Assembly: GCA_019038745.1 (NCBI GenBank)
Contig: JAHOYV010000039.1
Location: 1-42,051, forward strand
DNA: 42,051 bases
Source: Gemmatimonadales bacterium
Lineage (GTDB): Bacteria > Krumholzibacteriota > Krumholzibacteriia > LZORAL124-64-63
Direction of reading: 5' to 3'
Of this stretch, positions 18,797 to 25,291 are shown piece after piece. Made by a program: the position numbers and the translations under genes. Position 1 is the first letter of the stretch. Every line of letters begins with the position of its first letter. The notes under the pieces are model-generated. The model searched no databases, was not told the origin of the DNA, and worked only from the letters and a program-made list of their open reading frames with translations.

Positions 18797-19177
18797 ATGA
18801 TAATCAGCAAAAAGTGTGTAGAATGTTACGAAAAGGAGAATCAAAAGATGGCCGAAGAAAAATGGGCTTGGTTCCCGTGGTATCTACATTGGGCGGTCGC
18901 TGTATTATTAACGCTGGCTGCGATTGGTATCGGAATCGGGGTCAGGCAGGAATACGCCGCGTGGTCGGCCCGTTTGCACGAGCAGATAAGCGACCGCATC
19001 GAGATTGAGATTGCGTTACACGAGCAGAATTACCACTATGAGGATGGGCAGAGTACGACATGGCTCGATCCAAACGGGAATCCCTTCGAACGGTTCAATC
19101 CAATAACGGGACCGTCTTTGCCGTCCAGCAGGATGGCCCCCGATGGGCGTTCTGGGCAGCCAGAATCCACAAAGTGA
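18797..19177 (+). CDS. Membrane protein with internal start
   Basis: A 126-residue protein. A short N-terminal module with CVEC ends in the same EKENQKM as the previous protein and contains the same 23-base repeat (18828-18850), giving AAGGAGAATC before an internal ATG 18848. After it come WAWFPWYL and a transmembrane segment (WAVAVLLTLAAIGIGIGV), then a soluble helical part and a Pro/Ser-rich tail. It is the last gene before the late region. Confidence 0.6.
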   Translation: MIISKKCVECYEKENQKMAEEKWAWFPWYLHWAVAVLLTLAAIGIGIGVRQEYAAWSARLHEQISDRIEIEIALHEQNYHYEDGQSTTWLDPNGNPFERFNPITGPSLPSSRMAPDGRSGQPESTK

Positions 19178-19324
19178 ATCAAGTGCGTGCGATTAGACGT
19201 TCAGACGTCAAAATCGCTTAGAATCGAAGCAGAGAGCTTTTACGGTTGCTGTTGGCGGGGTGGGCTTCGGCCCCCCTGCTGATGTTAAGATGGGCAATAA
19301 AGACTGTTTGATTAGGGGCCATGG
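19178..19324 (+). other. Intergenic region with UUCG hairpin
   Basis: This 147-base gap contains GGGC-TTCG-GCCC (19260-19271), a stem capped by a UUCG tetraloop and extended past one mismatch by two or three further pairs, but without a T run. It also contains CAAAATCGCTTAG (19210-19222), shared exactly with the intergenic region at 41098-41110. It separates the small-gene block from the structural operon. Confidence 0.4.
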
Positions 19325-19525
19325 ATGGCGTGTAATCCAAAATATAATGCACTAAATAACTTGACACCTGGCTCAAAAAATGGTATAGAGCGGGCTGATA
19401 GAGTGCTTGAGGCACTGAAAAGCGAGGCCGAAACTTTAGGCTTCGGCGAAATAGAGGTCAGGTTGATCGTACACAAGGGCGAGATTACAGCGGGCCTTGT
19501 GACGACGCTGACCAAAAAAATCTGA
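19325..19525 (+). CDS. Hypothetical protein upstream of portal
   Basis: A 66-residue protein with an N-terminal loop, a helix (IERADRVLEALKSEAETLGF) and two strands (EIEVRLIVHKGEITAGLVTT), a compact alpha-beta fold I do not recognise. AGGGG precedes ATG 19325. A near-consensus promoter lies inside its N-terminal codons (19361-19389), so it may be read both from upstream and partly overlap the late-promoter function. Confidence 0.6.
   Translation: MACNPKYNALNNLTPGSKNGIERADRVLEALKSEAETLGFGEIEVRLIVHKGEITAGLVTTLTKKI
19361..19389 (+). promoter_or_regulatory. Strong sigma70-type promoter for the structural operon
   Basis: TTGACA (19361-19366), a 17-base spacer and TATAGA (19384-19389): 11 of 12 consensus bases at ideal spacing. 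It lies within the small gene at 19325 and about 190 bases before the portal gene, so it is the best candidate for driving the head and tail genes. Confidence 0.6.
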
Positions 19526-19577
19526 CACACTGGCTACTCCACACCATAGGAATGCCGCGACACTTTGGGACGCGACT

Positions 19578-22500
19578 ATGGGTTTGTGGAGTTGGCTGTC
19601 AGAGCGAATCAAGGGGGCAGAGCATGGCGGCTGGTCGGTTACGCAGTTTCAGGCCGGTCGGCCCACATACCAACGCGCCAATTCGCGGCAGTTAATCGAG
19701 AAATACACCGGCTACGTCTACGCCTGCGCGCGGATTAACGCCGCAAGCTGCGCCGAAGTGCCGCTCAAGCTCTACGCGACGAAGACAAGCACGCGGCAAA
19801 AGGCCCGTTTCCGCACGAAAGACGTTCATCCGAACCGGCTGGCGTATATGGCGAAATCGCAAACGCTCCACAAATACGTGAGCGCTGCGGTCGAAATCGA
19901 GGAAGTTATTGAGCATCCGCTACTGGACTTGCTCCGAAATGTGAATGAGTTCATGGGCGAATTCGACCTGATGGAGGGGCTATTCCTCTATCAGGAGCTC
20001 GTCGGCAATCATTACCTACAGATCATAAACGACGGTCTCGGTACGCCGGTCGAAATATGGCCGCGAATGCCGCAATACATGACCATTGTGCCGGACAAAA
20101 AGAAGTTCATCAAGCACTACGAATTTACCGTTAATGGGGCCGAGAAATACATTATCGATCCCGCCGACATTATCCACTTCAAGTATCTCGATCCTACAAG
20201 CCAATTCTACGGGATGGGGCCGTTACAGGCCGCTGCGGTTGCTGCTGATTTGAATATGGGAATGAATCTGCATGAGAAGAACATCTTTGAAAACGGCGGC
20301 GTTCCCGATTTTGTTATCACCTATCCGCCCGAAGCAGGTAAGCCGAAACCGGGCGAACAGTCGCGAATAGAGAAGCTATGGGCGCGGAAGTTCCGCCGAG
20401 CGCGACAGAGGGGCCAGCCGGGATTTCTCTATGGCGGGGCCGACCTGAAACAGATTGCTATGAGTCCGAAAGATATGGCGTATCTCCAGGGCCGCAAGGC
20501 GACGTTGCAGGAAATCGCCGCAATATTTGGCGTTCCGCTGTCGAAGCTGACCGTCGAAAACGTCAATCGAGCGAACGCAGAGGCGGGCGAATACGCATAC
20601 GCCAAGAGCACAATACTGCCCAGGCTGCGCAAGGCCGAAAGCAAGTTCAACGAGAATCTGACCCCGCGTTTCGATCCTAACCTGTTTCTGGCGTTCGATA
20701 ATCCCGTGCCGGATAACGTCGAATTGATGCTCAAGGAGCGCGAAACAAACCTTAGAACACAGTATTCGTCAATCAATCTCGAACGGCGCAGAGCGAACGA
20801 GGAAGACGTGCCGTGGGGCGATGAGCCGCTCGTGTCGATGGGTATTGTGCCGCTGAGCATTGCGGGCCAGTCGCCGCTAGTTAGCCCAGCAGACGGCGAC
20901 GGAGGCGGCCAGGAGGACAAGAACAAGGCCACAAGCAAGCGAGTGCCCCCGCTCGGACACCCCACGAATTTCGAGAACGAGCCGTTCCGCTATCAATTGG
21001 TTCGGACGTTCGCCGAAATGCGGGCCGACTTCATGGCGGAATTGGCCGAGTACGGAGAAGGCCTGGTCAAGAGCATTGAAAAGGCATCGCCGGACGACTT
21101 CATGTCCGGCTGGTTCGATATGCAGAAGTGGGAAAAATTGCTCAAGGAGCGCACAGACCCGTTTTTGAGATACACGTTTATGACCGGGGCCGAGCGGGCT
21201 ATGCGGCAGATGAACGTCGAAACTCAGTTCAATCCGCTCAATCACCACGTCGATCACGCACTGACCGTAACGCGGACGGGGCACATACAACAGAACCTTA
21301 ACACGAGAGTCAAGGATTTGCGGAAAGCCATTGCCGCCGGCATGGCCGAAGGTGAAGGGCCTGCACTGCTCAAGAAACGTGTAGCCGCCGTGTTCGAGGG
21401 CATGGAACAGCACGCGGCGATGAGAATCGCCAGAACCGAAACAATCTGGGCGTGGAATCGCGGGGCAATGGAGGGCTACCGGCAGTCAGGCCGAGTGAGC
21501 GGGACGAAGTGGGTTACCTCCGGGGATGGGAGGCGATGCCAATTCTGTGCGGCTATGGATGGCAAAGAATCCGGCCTTGGCGCACCCTATAAATCCGCTG
21601 GTACTGAAATGGAGGGGGCCGACGAGGGTATCCTCAAATTCCAATACGAAGATGTTTTGCACCCGCCGCTCCACCCTAATTGCTTACCGGGCGACAGTCT
21701 CGTATCGCCCCGTGGCCGGATTTTGTCTGTTAGTAAACGGCTTTATGATGGAGATATGCTTGTCATTCGCACTGCCGCTGGTGACGAACTCGCCTGCACG
21801 CCAAACCACCCGATACTCACAGACGGCGGGTGGGTCGCTGCGAACGCTTTGGACGTAGGCCGCGCAGTGGTCTGCAACAGCGCCAGTGAGCGGCGAAGTT
21901 TCATTCACGGCGACCACATAAATGCACCAGCCAGAATTGAGGATATAGCGGAAGCGTTCTTGCGTGATAGCAAGGTGTTTGCCGTACCAGTGCCAGTTGC
22001 CGCCGAACACTTCCACGGCGACGGGGGCGGCAGCGAGGTCGCAGTTATAGGCTCCAAAAGCCTTTTGCGGTACGGTTTCGATGCCGCGATCAAGCAACAT
22101 TTGCCCCAACTCGATTTCGCATGGCGAGACGTTTTGCGGAAATCTTTGGAGCGTCTGTGCAGTCTTGCATTTGACAGCCCAAGAGACTTTGCGGCCCTTA
22201 CAGGCGGCGTGGGCGGCTCTGACTTGATTGGCACGGGCACTGCTGCTCATATTCGCCCACTTAACCGTCTCGGCCTCGCTTCGCGTTCTGGGGCGGTAGC
22301 CGATAGCCAGCAATCGCCGGCCAATGGCCCTGCGCGAGCAGCCAAACCGCTTAGCCAAAGCATTAACGGACATTCCATTGCGGTACATGTTGAAGATTTC
22401 ATCAATCGGCAACGAGAGTTGCGGCTGTTGCATCGGCTCAGGAGTGCAATCGGGCGAAGTTTGGATGTTACAACGATTTCTCATATTTCATCCTTTCATT

Positions 22501-22610
22501 ATCGTGGCTACGTTTACAACCTTGAAACCGCCCAATCATACTACATAGCCTCAAACCTTGCAACACATAACTGCCGTTGCGCAATCGTGCCAATCCTGAT
22601 CGGAGAATAA
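19578..22610 (+). CDS. Portal-MuF fusion protein interrupted by an intein
   Basis: A 1010-codon gene. Residues 1 to about 430 are an HK97-type portal (IEKYTGYVYACARINAASC, then the EEVIEHPLLDLL region and LQEIAAIFGVPLSKL). After an acidic linker, a MuF-type minor head domain follows (ARTETIWAWNRGAMEGYRQSG, KWVTSGDGRRCQFCAAMDG, LHPPLHPN). The MuF motif HPNCRC is split: Cys702 to Asn998 is a 297-residue intein, and the C-extein begins CRCAIVPIL. The spliced product would be 713 residues, a ring at the capsid vertex for DNA entry. The start at 19578 lacks a strong ribosome site. Confidence 0.93.
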   Translation: MGLWSWLSERIKGAEHGGWSVTQFQAGRPTYQRANSRQLIEKYTGYVYACARINAASCAEVPLKLYATKTSTRQKARFRTKDVHPNRLAYMAKSQTLHKYVSAAVEIEEVIEHPLLDLLRNVNEFMGEFDLMEGLFLYQELVGNHYLQIINDGLGTPVEIWPRMPQYMTIVPDKKKFIKHYEFTVNGAEKYIIDPADIIHFKYLDPTSQFYGMGPLQAAAVAADLNMGMNLHEKNIFENGGVPDFVITYPPEAGKPKPGEQSRIEKLWARKFRRARQRGQPGFLYGGADLKQIAMSPKDMAYLQGRKATLQEIAAIFGVPLSKLTVENVNRANAEAGEYAYAKSTILPRLRKAESKFNENLTPRFDPNLFLAFDNPVPDNVELMLKERETNLRTQYSSINLERRRANEEDVPWGDEPLVSMGIVPLSIAGQSPLVSPADGDGGGQEDKNKATSKRVPPLGHPTNFENEPFRYQLVRTFAEMRADFMAELAEYGEGLVKSIEKASPDDFMSGWFDMQKWEKLLKERTDPFLRYTFMTGAERAMRQMNVETQFNPLNHHVDHALTVTRTGHIQQNLNTRVKDLRKAIAAGMAEGEGPALLKKRVAAVFEGMEQHAAMRIARTETIWAWNRGAMEGYRQSGRVSGTKWVTSGDGRRCQFCAAMDGKESGLGAPYKSAGTEMEGADEGILKFQYEDVLHPPLHPNCLPGDSLVSPRGRILSVSKRLYDGDMLVIRTAAGDELACTPNHPILTDGGWVAANALDVGRAVVCNSASERRSFIHGDHINAPARIEDIAEAFLRDSKVFAVPVPVAAEHFHGDGGGSEVAVIGSKSLLRYGFDAAIKQHLPQLDFAWRDVLRKSLERLCSLAFDSPRDFAALTGGVGGSDLIGTGTAAHIRPLNRLGLASRSGAVADSQQSPANGPARAAKPLSQSINGHSIAVHVEDFINRQRELRLLHRLRSAIGRSLDVTTISHISSFHYRGYVYNLETAQSYYIASNLATHNCRCAIVPILIGE
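21681..22571 (+). mobile_element. Intein in the MuF domain
   Basis: The element runs from Cys702 (TGC 21681) to Asn998 (AAC 22569-22571). Block A is CLPGDSLVSPRG, block B is ELACTPNHPIL with the TxxH motif, block F is RGYVYNLET and block G is ATHN followed by extein Cys999. All residues needed for standard splicing are present. Removal rejoins HPN to CRCAIV, the intact MuF motif. No LAGLIDADG or HNH motif is visible between blocks B and F in this frame; instead an endonuclease gene occupies the opposite strand, which makes the element look mobile. Confidence 0.9.
21684..22484 (-). CDS. Homing endonuclease antisense to the intein (HTH plus Vsr-like)
   Basis: A 266-residue protein, the only convincing minus-strand gene. 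Residues 36-58 are a helix-turn-helix (MSVNALAKRFGCSRRAIGRR). Residues 119-190 form a Vsr/DUF559-like nuclease: SPCEIELGQMLLDRGIETVPQ, YNCDL (Asp149), PVAVEVFGGNWHW (Glu158) and RFRYILNSGW. The tail (ADHCAAYVQSVRSDP, EYRVVWRAGEFVTSG) fits phage homing endonucleases. AAAGGA lies 6 bases before its ATG at 22484. It is codon-aligned with the sense frame: Met1 opposes His969, and its TAA opposes Leu703, the second intein residue. Confidence 0.85.
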   Translation of the reverse strand: MRNRCNIQTSPDCTPEPMQQPQLSLPIDEIFNMYRNGMSVNALAKRFGCSRRAIGRRLLAIGYRPRTRSEAETVKWANMSSSARANQVRAAHAACKGRKVSWAVKCKTAQTLQRFPQNVSPCEIELGQMLLDRGIETVPQKAFGAYNCDLAAAPVAVEVFGGNWHWYGKHLAITQERFRYILNSGWCIYVVAVNETSPLTGAVADHCAAYVQSVRSDPPAVCEYRVVWRAGEFVTSGSANDKHISIIKPFTNRQNPATGRYETVAR

Positions 22611-22612
22611 CA

Positions 22613-22762
22613 ATGCAGAGAAACGTCAAAGACAAAGCGATGAGGCCAAAGTTGACGGCGGCACAAGTCCACGCCCGACGTTTCCCGAAGCCTAAAGGTG
22701 ATCCGGCCAGGCCGCACACAATCACAAGAGCAGAAATCACAGGAGAATCGGACGATGAGTGA
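22613..22762 (+). CDS. Small basic protein
   Basis: A 49-residue Arg/Lys-rich protein with Pro-rich middle (RRFPKPKGDPARPHT), likely disordered and nucleic-acid binding. ATG 22613 follows CGGAGAATAAC. The 3' end overlaps the next gene by 8 bases. It lies between the portal-MuF gene and the prohead protease gene, in the head operon. No family recognised. Confidence 0.55.
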   Translation: MQRNVKDKAMRPKLTAAQVHARRFPKPKGDPARPHTITRAEITGESDDE

Positions 22763-23033
22763 GTACTCGAAACTCAAAAAGACCGCGTTGGTCAAGCTGG
22801 CCAAGAGCAGGAATCTCGATAGCACGGGCACGAAAGCCGAGATTATCGCGAGACTTGAAGCTAAGCCCGTCAAGCCAGAAAAGGCCTTGCCGCCTATCAA
22901 TGACCCGTTCGTGACCTGCGGAACGTGCAATTCGTCGGTTCGCAAGAGTGAGTGCAAAACTGATACCCAATCAGGCAGGCCCGCTTGCCCGCGATGCGTC
23001 GCGGCGCACAAGGGGCGAGAATACGCGCTTTGA
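22755..23033 (+). CDS. SAP/HeH-domain protein with zinc pair
   Basis: A 92-residue protein. Residues 5-34 (KLKKTALVKLAKSRNLDSTG followed by TKAEIIARL) match the SAP/HeH helix-extended loop-helix motif, which binds DNA or RNA. A second part has CGTC and CPRC separated by about 30 residues, a zinc ribbon. AGGAGAATC is 7 bases before ATG 22755. Such small SAP proteins are common among phage head genes and may help DNA packaging or be packaged. Confidence 0.75.
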   Translation: MSEYSKLKKTALVKLAKSRNLDSTGTKAEIIARLEAKPVKPEKALPPINDPFVTCGTCNSSVRKSECKTDTQSGRPACPRCVAAHKGREYAL

Positions 23034-23044
23034 CAGGAGCTATC

Positions 23045-23824
23045 ATGACTGAGAAGCTGAAAAAGACATTACGGCAATACATTGCCAAGACCGAGACCGA
23101 CGAAACCGAACGCACTGTGACGGCTATCATAAACACCGACACAATTGACCGCGACCACGAAATCATTCTGCCCAAGGGCATGGACGCGATAGCGTATCTG
23201 AAAAATCCCGTCGTACTCTGGGCGCACGATTATTCACAGCCCCCAATTGCGCGGGCTCTATGGTTGAAAAAGGGCCGGAACCGGATCACGGCGAAGATGC
23301 AATTTGCCGAGGATGATGTAGCTGAGCGAGTGTACCAACTATACAAAAATGGTTTTCTTTCGGCGTTTTCGGTTGGGATTGTTCCAACAGAGCAGCCTCG
23401 ACCGCCAAAACCCGAAGAAATCAAAGCCCATCCTGAGTGGTCAGAAGCTCGTTACATCTATCCGAAGTGGGAGTTGCTGGAGTTCTCTGCCGTGCCTGTT
23501 CCGGCCAATCCTGACGCGCTCGCTCAGGCTATCAAGGTTGCGTCGATTACGATTGAAGACGCAAAATTCGCCGGATTCGATGTCGAAGCAATCGAAGCCG
23601 ACGAAGAAGAAACGCTGATGATGGCCACAAAAACGCCCAGCCAGCCCGAACCCGAAGTGGAAGCCGAGCCGCATCCGGAACTGACCACGATCAAAGTTGC
23701 CCCAGTCGCAATTAAAGTCCAGCCGGTCAGCGATATCAGAGTTGCCGAACCCATAACCGTAGCGCCCGCCACCGACGAACTCGTGGGCGAGGCGATTAAA
23801 CGCCATAGGGGCGTAATGTATTGA
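23045..23824 (+). CDS. HK97-type prohead protease
   Basis: A 259-residue maturation protease of the U35/S78 family. It shows the usual order: DTIDRDHEIILPKGMDAIAY, VVLWAHDYSQPPI (catalytic His), AFSVGIVPTE (catalytic Ser) and WELLEFSAVPVPANPDA, after which the C-terminal 95 residues are low-complexity, Pro/Glu/Val-rich. It cleaves the capsid delta-domain and then itself. AGGAG precedes ATG 23045. Confidence 0.95.
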   Translation: MTEKLKKTLRQYIAKTETDETERTVTAIINTDTIDRDHEIILPKGMDAIAYLKNPVVLWAHDYSQPPIARALWLKKGRNRITAKMQFAEDDVAERVYQLYKNGFLSAFSVGIVPTEQPRPPKPEEIKAHPEWSEARYIYPKWELLEFSAVPVPANPDALAQAIKVASITIEDAKFAGFDVEAIEADEEETLMMATKTPSQPEPEVEAEPHPELTTIKVAPVAIKVQPVSDIRVAEPITVAPATDELVGEAIKRHRGVMY

Positions 23825-23843
23825 TCGGAGCAATCAGCCGATC

Positions 23844-23880
23844 GCTGGAGATATCAGGCGAAAGCTGGAGATATCAGGCG
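23844..23880 (+). repeat. Tandem 17-base direct repeat upstream of the capsid gene
   Basis: GCTGGAGATATCAGGCG occurs at 23844-23860 and again, after AAA, at 23864-23880, a 20-base period. The next bases (TGACGTGGAGAT) look like the start of a third, degraded copy. It lies in the leader between the protease stop and the capsid start. Confidence 0.7.
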
Positions 23881-23935
23881 TGACGTGGAGATTCGCAGGT
23901 CATCGAATCGAAACATCGAAAAAAAGGAGTATGAA

Positions 23936-25291
23936 ATGCCGAACGCAAAAGATGAACTTACCATCAAAATCCGTCTCGTCAAAGAATGGGATGACGGCGT
24001 GAACCCGGAATGGCCGCTCGGCCAGGTTCTCATGGCCACCGAGAAGGGCGCTGAGACGCTCGTGAAGCAGGGAGTCGCCGAAATCTATGAGGCCAAGGCC
24101 ACCGACAGAGTCTTTGTCAGCCCGCTCGGCGGCAATATGATCGAGGAAGAACTCGAAGGCACTATTCGGCGCATAGCCGATGAACGCATCAAAGAGAATA
24201 CCGCTCAGACAATCGTGACCGGCGAAGATGACTACATCAAGCGGGCAGGATTCCATTCGATGAGCCATTTCGCAATGGAAGTTTACAAGGCCGGCCCGGG
24301 CGAGCAAGGTTCTCAGGCCATCAACAAGTGGGACGGTTTCTGCAAAGCCGAAGGACTGAGCGAAGGCGTCGGCGCTGATGGCGGCGTGCTTCTGCCGACA
24401 GAGTTCAGAAGCGAACTGCTTCGGATAGCGATGGAGGAATCGTTCATCAGTTCCCGCGCGACCAGTATTCCGATGCAGACCAACTCAATCAAGATTCCCA
24501 TAGTCATGGAATCGTCGAGGGCATCGAGCTTTTTCGGCGGCGTGATTATCTATCGACCGGATGAGGCGGCGCAGATTACAAAGAGTAAGCCGCAATTCTC
24601 GCACGTTAAACTCGAACTCAACAAGCTGGCGGGGCTGGCGTATGTGACGAGCGAATTGCTGGAAGACTCGCCGATGTCGTTGCAGCCGATACTCACGACC
24701 ATGTTCGGGCAGGCTCTCGGATACCAGATGGACGACGATTTCGTCAATGGAACCGGAGCAGGCCAGCCGCTCGGTATTCTCAATGCAGGATGCCTGATAA
24801 GCGTAAGTGCTGAAACCGGCCAGACGTCGAGCGAATTGCTCACGCTGAACATTCTGAATATGTGGGCGAGAATGTTCCCCGGCTCGCATCCTTACGCGCT
24901 GTGGATGGCGAATCCCACGTGCTTCCCGCAGTTAGCGCAACTGTCGCTGTCGGTCGGTACGGGCGGTTCTGGTGTAGGATTGCTGAGAGGCGATGCAACC
25001 GGCGCCGTCGCGACGAGCTTGCTCGGCAAGCCTCTGCAACTGACATCGCATTGTCAGTCTCTCGGCACAAAGGGCGACCTGATTCTCGCGGATTGGCGAC
25101 AGTATCTCGTCGGCCAGAAGGTTGGGGCCTCGATGAAAGTTGATTCGAGTATTCACCTGCGATTCGATTACGATGAGACGGCGTTCCGCTTTATCTCGCG
25201 ATACGATGGTCAGCCCTGGTGGACCGGCGCGTTGACCCCGAAACGAGGCGACAGCCTGAGTCCGTTCGTCACCCTTGAGACTCGCTCCTGA
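23936..25291 (+). CDS. Major capsid protein, HK97 fold
   Basis: A 451-residue protein. The N-terminal part is charged and probably a delta/scaffold domain removed by the protease. The mature part shows the HK97 pattern: GGVLLPTEFRSELLRIAMEE, IPMQTNSIKIPIV, LNKLAGLAYVTSELLEDSP, QALGYQMDDDFVNGTGAGQP, GILN, then LLGKPLQLTSHC and LADWRQYLVG near the C-terminus. AAGGAGTATGAA precedes ATG 23936. Cleavage probably occurs around residue 95-130, but I cannot place it exactly. Confidence 0.95.
   Translation: MPNAKDELTIKIRLVKEWDDGVNPEWPLGQVLMATEKGAETLVKQGVAEIYEAKATDRVFVSPLGGNMIEEELEGTIRRIADERIKENTAQTIVTGEDDYIKRAGFHSMSHFAMEVYKAGPGEQGSQAINKWDGFCKAEGLSEGVGADGGVLLPTEFRSELLRIAMEESFISSRATSIPMQTNSIKIPIVMESSRASSFFGGVIIYRPDEAAQITKSKPQFSHVKLELNKLAGLAYVTSELLEDSPMSLQPILTTMFGQALGYQMDDDFVNGTGAGQPLGILNAGCLISVSAETGQTSSELLTLNILNMWARMFPGSHPYALWMANPTCFPQLAQLSLSVGTGGSGVGLLRGDATGAVATSLLGKPLQLTSHCQSLGTKGDLILADWRQYLVGQKVGASMKVDSSIHLRFDYDETAFRFISRYDGQPWWTGALTPKRGDSLSPFVTLETRS

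Follow-up and report, generated by a model that had tools for sequence, protein, structure and literature searches.

A predicted mobile intein in a phage head gene and its likely homing endonuclease gene, encoded codon against codon on the opposite strand

In a stretch of 42,051 nucleotides from a Gemmatimonadales bacterium (contig JAHOYV010000039.1, here called the window) we analyzed an intein inside a phage portal-MuF gene together with a second gene that runs through the same segment on the minus strand. Very probably the two make up one predicted mobile intein, and its likely homing endonuclease has a gene of its own, which runs codon against codon along the complementary strand. The two-strand coding is established by comparison of homologous sequences, and the identities of the intein and of the nuclease are strong predictions from profiles, motifs and modelled folds.

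The intein and the antisense gene of the window

The plus strand of the window carries at 19578–22610 an open frame of 1010 amino acids, a fusion of a portal protein with a MuF head protein. It is matched by the Pfam families Phage_portal (1.5e-55), Phage_Mu_F (2.7e-10) and Intein_splicing (PF14890, 8e-6), the last with 26.2 bits under the curated cut-off of 35.8 bits. The intein comprises 297 codons at 21681–22571 (+), from Cys1 to Asn297 (Cys702 to Asn998 of the frame), is followed by a +1 Cys and separates the N-extein (19578–21680) from the C-extein (22572–22607), the flanks HPN/CRC marking the insertion point. A first-pass annotation, made from the letters alone, had placed an intein with blocks B and F and Cys999 at these very positions, splitting HPNCRC, and PF14890 and the motifs agree with it: we found the N-terminal nucleophile Cys, block B (TPNHP, 21798–21812, +), block F as a sequence motif (VYNLE, 22512–22526, +) and block G ending in His-Asn before the +1 Cys at the C-terminal splice junction (HN/C, 22566–22574, +). 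Block B lies opposite nuclease residues 225–229 and its sense residues T40, P41, N42, H43 and P44 show a conservation of 0.90–1.00; across an alignment of 54 inteins C1, N42, H43, P44, T283 and N297 never vary. A profile search matched the window intein to solved inteins, and its predicted Hint halves (residues 1–66 and 261–297) adopt the Hint (horseshoe) fold in the model, in which the spacer is mostly of low confidence except for residues 81–100. In the spacer's own frame Pfam found Intein_splicing alone and no in-frame homing endonuclease.

The antisense gene (22484–21684, −) encodes a predicted homing endonuclease of 266 amino acids and lies wholly inside the intein, its stop being the complement of intein codon 2 (TTA, Leu). 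As the distance from 19578 to 21684 is a multiple of three, its codons stand exactly opposite the sense codons. The Shine-Dalgarno-like AAAGGA (22496–22491, −) precedes its ATG by six bases, as already described in the first-pass annotation. The product combines a helix-turn-helix at residues 26–60 (22305–22409, −; HTH_7 2.4e-6 at 26–52, predicted helices 27–35, 40–47 and 51–60) with a Vsr/EDxHD-like catalytic domain at residues 117–238 (21771–22136, −), the last strands of which overlap the coding sequence of Hint block B. The Pfam nuclease match of the window protein alone is sub-threshold (MTES_1575, E 0.16), and the same family is matched at E<=0.01 by 73 of 122 members of the nuclease family. 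Sequence profiles and the predicted fold relate the protein to Vsr and to the homing endonuclease I-Bth0305I, upholding the earlier assignment as a helix-turn-helix plus Vsr-like endonuclease. The structure prediction is confident and shows a Vsr/PD-(D/E)xK-type catalytic fold with the acidic and His residues of EDxHD/Vsr-like enzymes (E123, D149, E158, H165), which we take to correspond to those of Vsr residue by residue. E123, Y146, N147, D149 and E158 are invariant in the 122 aligned members, and W164 and H165 are found in at least 90%. The N-terminal length varies across the family; the 461-residue nuclease of a Chloroflexi metagenome-assembled genome (L199) apparently carries several extra N-terminal helix-turn-helix units.

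Among the further features of the window is a weak promoter-like site (TTGCAA-17-TATGAT, 9/12; 22535–22563, −), the sole one on the minus strand in 21600–23200, where both strands together hold two such sites versus 0.8 (standard deviation 1.0) expected by shuffling. A tRNA search of the window and an Rfam search of 19000–24000 gave no match, and in a protein search the locus is single copy in its 3.6-Mb assembly.

Recurrence of the layout and selection on both strands

To follow both proteins into relatives we used protein and translated searches. The window nuclease found 103 relatives in a protein search, and among phages tblastn matched 112 records with the antisense protein and 134 with the intein. 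From these tblastn lists 22 phage loci (L002–L023) were fetched, of which 20 have the nuclease open reading frame (ORF) on the strand opposite an open intein frame, in codon register with it; in the other two the nuclease is free-standing (Acinetobacter phage IME285, L014) or a different antisense gene is present (Gordonia phage SchottB, L022). The antisense gene is annotated in one of the 20 nested loci, phage PK2, as a hypothetical protein. The nuclease gene ends 3–66 bases inside the intein in the 18 loci, among them the window, where this was measured. A scan of viral_contigs with the single window nuclease gave no relative; with the nuclease family alignment A1, 534 of 600 candidate stretches were relatives and 80 were kept. 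A hidden Markov model (HMM) of the nuclease matched 102 of the 103 loci from the window, phages and viral_contigs, corresponding to 86 clusters at 90% identity. In 84 of these clusters the nuclease is nested antisense in an open frame with block B, and 77 of the 84 also show block G by pattern. The mean number of opposite stops per nuclease core in the three phases is 0.36, 9.2 and 18.3. Phase 0 is free of them in 87 of 102 ORFs, in 13 they are located before the nuclease start, beyond the intein, and the remaining two ORFs are the free-standing copies L014 and L070. The usual host gene is MuF, with Phage_Mu_F matched by 49 of 67 N-exteins scanned (those of the 84 that were parsed and had at least 120 amino acids).

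The same picture was obtained when the search was started from the intein, where 80 of 505 loci were kept, a sample biased towards close relatives. An antisense nuclease match is present in all 80, and in 78 it is long; 79 of the matches are in phase 0, and the script left the phase of the remaining one unassigned. L162 is cut by the contig end, and L175 (3001–3564) has an otherwise complete-looking intein of 188 residues with an antisense nuclease shortened to 126 amino acids, as if a homing gene were decaying while its intein stays intact. The 14 loci found in genome_contigs, among them Pseudomonas, Rubellimicrobium, Chitinophaga, Chloroflexi and Peregrinibacteria and many of them metagenome-assembled, all have the layout without an opposite stop. 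The homologues co-occur in the same antisense phase, as the first-pass annotation had proposed to check, and among the 80 intein-selected loci, L162 and L175 aside, we met no intein kept beside a closed antisense frame, which it had named as evidence against its idea.

As nested ORFs were picked for their openness, the converse count of antisense stops in the sense frame (0 versus 404 expected) is no evidence. Informative is the number of codons in the last 200 nuclease codons that would place a stop in the sense frame: none was found in the 84 clusters versus 263 expected from extein codon usage. The two free-standing copies have 8 and 4 such codons versus 7.6 and 2.1 expected.

Both strands are under selection, as can be seen from the substitutions by codon position in 87 of 100 nested loci (682 pairs, 31 of them disjoint and 28 of these with enough extein). 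In the extein, sense positions 1/2/3 differ by 0.44/0.38/0.62, with the third ahead of the first in 25 of 28 disjoint pairs, and in blocks F–G by 0.21/0.17/0.44 (third ahead in 29 of 31). In the spacer the order is turned around (0.50/0.24/0.35), the first position exceeding the third in 30 of 31 pairs when aligned in the sense frame and in 31 of 31 when aligned as nuclease, where sense first is nuclease third. The nuclease tail opposite Hint blocks A–B shows 0.33/0.14/0.33, with the third position ahead in 16 and the first in 11 of 31 pairs. The spacer therefore changes in the way of a nuclease gene and the splice end in that of an intein, and the Hint-N stretch shows both patterns; in the codon-position comparison that had been proposed, selection acts on the antisense protein within the spacer and on the splicing protein beyond it.

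Elements read on both strands and an apparently independent second nuclease type

Read on the complementary strand, block F (G-H-V-Y-N-L-Q/E) often gives (G)GAGGTTRTANACATG, a Shine-Dalgarno sequence plus start codon, with the ATG opposite a His codon. Block F could be parsed in 76 of the 84 nested clusters (without L041, L042, L081, L038, L069, L043, L017 and L019), and 48 of the 76 have a Shine-Dalgarno-like motif and a start opposite it, spaced by 7–10 bases in 35, 11 in two and 14–15 in 11. Codon choice follows the position of the start. Among the 69 clusters with Leu at the respective site, those with an ATG opposite block F use CTC/CTT in 44 of 52 versus 17.2 expected (P 1.4e-15, a value that, like the other P values here, ignores shared ancestry), whereas clusters with a start elsewhere show no bias (7 of 17 versus 6.6). 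His is encoded by CAT in 50 of 55 clusters versus 22.6 expected. After clustering at 60% the counts are 38 of 44 versus 14.5 for Leu and 43 of 47 versus 20.0 for His. The window itself belongs to the minority class, its nuclease starting further in with its own Shine-Dalgarno sequence.

The second such element is the sense motif DFHGDG (HFHGDG in the window, 22008–22025, +), which lies opposite the active-site strand of the nuclease (residues 154–159). The first-pass annotation had seen the nuclease Glu motif facing sense AEHFHGDGG, and this overlap is real and doubly constrained. The codons of nuclease residues 154–158 (P-V-A-V-E) are nearly fixed as CCC GTC GCC GTG GAA, with GTG for V157 in 119 of 119 versus 24.5 expected (195 ORFs in 132 clusters at 85%, without L014, L070, L022, L104 and L105), and sense FHGDG is therefore fixed as well. 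Conservation is higher for the sense residue than for the nuclease residue facing it at positions 110 (D, 0.80 versus 0.49), 112 (0.96 versus 0.91), 114 (0.98 versus 0.86) and 115 (0.85 versus 0.72), whereas at 111 and 113 the nuclease residue is the more conserved one. A looser form, [FLIY][HYNQ][GS]D at 55–90 residues from block B, is present in 118 of 120 listed intein homologues (of 387 found, the window's own protein included). Judged from these alignments, sense DFHGDG is conserved beyond the needs of the nuclease. An element acting at the DNA level is disfavoured, as codon 155 changes from V to I in 16 of 131 while the sense Asp is kept in 128 of 131, and the base by which the Asp could change without altering the nuclease is nearly fixed (GTC in 112 of 113).

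No amino acid makes an opposite stop unavoidable in the codon-aligned phase, and any protein can stay open there because synonymous changes alone suffice, whereas five and six dipeptides force one in the other two antisense phases. This synonymous freedom may help to explain why this phase alone is seen. That unavoidable stops block the other phases holds only in part: there the mean is 1.6 and 0.9 unavoidable dipeptides per 200 residues with a minimum of 0, the window having 1 and 0, and phase 0 is favoured but not enforced.

The Gordonia phages SchottB (L022, 2546–3136, −) and Nordenberg (L105, 2543–3133, −) carry another codon-aligned antisense gene in their MuF intein, opposite an open sense frame. 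Its product has no match to the nuclease HMM and no Pfam hit, and it contains a FIDGEG motif, which we take to be of the LAGLIDADG family. With tblastn it is found beneath MuF in six Gordonia phages (9 records), of which SchottB and Nordenberg had their phase checked; a viral_contigs scan with the SchottB protein gave no relative. Between these two phages sense positions 1/2/3 differ at 51/6/16 sites across the gene versus 14/11/69 in the 840 bases upstream, so that this antisense gene, too, is selected as a protein. Its homologue P0105 (39% over 55%) carries the LAGLIDADG families PF00961 and PF14528, and some relatives in Caulobacter phages are annotated as HNH homing endonucleases. Apparently the Gordonia gene encodes a LAGLIDADG-like nuclease of independent origin.

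Mobility, competing explanations and known systems

For the window the empty site is known from the HPN/CRC motif only; for a relative, the phage Snoke, an exact one exists. Snoke has 816 bp inserted between Asn and Cys codons that are adjacent in phage K1ind2 (L104), with 300-bp flanks 88% and 92% identical, and the Snoke paper also gives K1ind2 as lacking the intein (PMC6776784). Within Kagunavirus, Escherichia phage KMB36 (L006) and Snoke (L002) both have an intein with an antisense nuclease in the head gene that is intein-free in K1ind2, each at a Cys codon of its own. The window nuclease is 62% identical to that of L024, and the N-exteins share 10.5% of 200 residues, which suggests transfer. 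Among pairs with at least 60% nuclease identity, 3 of 11 have exteins at 30% identity or less. Nuclease and extein identities correlate (0.64 over 112 pairs with nuclease identity of at least 50%), so vertical descent also plays a part. We propose that the intein would splice itself out and so spare the head protein, and that the nuclease would be made from minus-strand RNA and would cut intein-free MuF alleles near the H-x-x/C codons, whereupon repair would copy the intein together with the nuclease. As the start is near block F and the stop near block A, the whole nuclease gene fits into the would-be spliced segment.

Three other explanations have to be weighed. Against our interpretation it can be said that in the window alone only 2.0 opposite stops are expected in the last 200 codons, making openness weak evidence there, and that a second codon-aligned antisense ORF (20877–21413, −, 178 amino acids) lies opposite the MuF extein. 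Open antisense frames alone prove little, and it is homology and the comparative tests that carry the case. The antisense ORF might accordingly be spurious, a codon-bias by-product of a real intein with a selected linker. Chance is ruled out by the absent sense stops and by the codon-position divergence, which likewise rules out the sense spacer as the sole selected product; with catalytic residues invariant in 122 members, two copies standing free as ordinary genes and a confident nuclease model, this explanation is hardly tenable.

The nuclease could also be real and the intein no longer splice, or the sense spacer be a functional domain with the antisense gene as a passenger that possibly regulates the portal through antisense RNA. 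The excess conservation of DFHGDG at four positions (not at 111 and 113) and its looser form at the right distance from block B fit such a domain, but the invariant splicing residues, the complete lack of sense stops, the low confidence of the spacer model outside residues 81–100 and the exact empty site in K1ind2 make it quite unlikely. Very improbable is a nuclease that moves or persists on its own, as a homing gene of the MuF locus in free-standing form, and that has come to sit in a resident intein without mobilising it. The copies in L014 (449–1348) and L070 (3300–4169) stand tail-to-tail with intein-less MuF genes, with closed opposite frames, as such a history would have it; they may be ancestors or escapees. 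Yet nearly all clusters (84 of 86) are nested, the stop lies just inside the intein, nuclease and extein histories partly disagree, and intein and nuclease share one DNA segment and would thus be copied together. The comparison supports a mobile two-sided element, in which, as the first-pass annotation had suggested, the intein would give housing and the antisense gene mobility.

Canonical mobile inteins have an in-frame endonuclease domain, e.g. TliVMA (PMC8966425). As in these, a segment coding for an endonuclease divides the Hint domain between blocks B and F, and the insertion point lies precisely before a Cys codon of a conserved motif; unlike in these, the endonuclease gene runs along the opposite strand from a start to a stop of its own and has the sense spacer as its codon complement. 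Antisense homing endonuclease genes are known from nuclear rDNA group I introns, such as that of I-DsqI, again on the strand opposite the spliced element (PMC9548176), but there the host element is RNA and one strand is protein-coding, whereas here both strands code through the same codons. Inteins in Guernseyvirinae head proteins have been reported for Snoke (PMC6776784), vKMB36 (PMC11162368) and UPWr_S (PMC8425127) and are of the same kind as the one described here; the available portions of these reports mention no endonuclease, either within the intein or opposite it. According to a further report, a variable island in a minor head gene is formed by an intein with a 0.8 kb homing endonuclease, the available text leaving the strand unstated (PMC7468147). 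A literature search in one open library found antisense homing genes in group I introns and none in inteins. With I-Bth0305I (PDB 3r3p, labelled there as a mobile intron protein; PMC3943268) the window nuclease shares the predicted catalytic fold, the acidic and His positions and a multi-domain build with DNA-binding modules, but its gene is antisense within an intein and its N-terminal modules are helix-turn-helix units.

In summary, we consider it rather likely that these elements form a widespread and overlooked class, in which a splicing domain and an independent homing nuclease are encoded on opposite strands. It would have arisen at least twice with unrelated nucleases (Vsr-like and LAGLIDADG-like), with block F read backwards as ribosome-binding site and start in many members and an 18-base core coding both for the active-site strand and for DFHGDG. 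This would be in-phase bidirectional coding of two folded proteins, occurring naturally and on a large scale. The gene of I-Bth0305I lies in a group I intron, and Vsr-like endonucleases have reportedly been described with split inteins in fractured genes by Dassa et al. in 2009. If our interpretation is true, a selfish element can entrust its safe housing to one strand of a segment and its mobility to the other, and would do so frequently in phage head genes, including those of sequenced Salmonella and Gordonia phages. Homing genes opposite other inteins may be missed, as annotation tends to avoid overlaps. Rodin and Ohno are said to have proposed that both strands were read as protein in the ancestors of the synthetases. 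With 84 natural examples (90% clusters) of two predicted folded proteins in exact antisense register, the question of protein coding on both strands becomes testable residue by residue.

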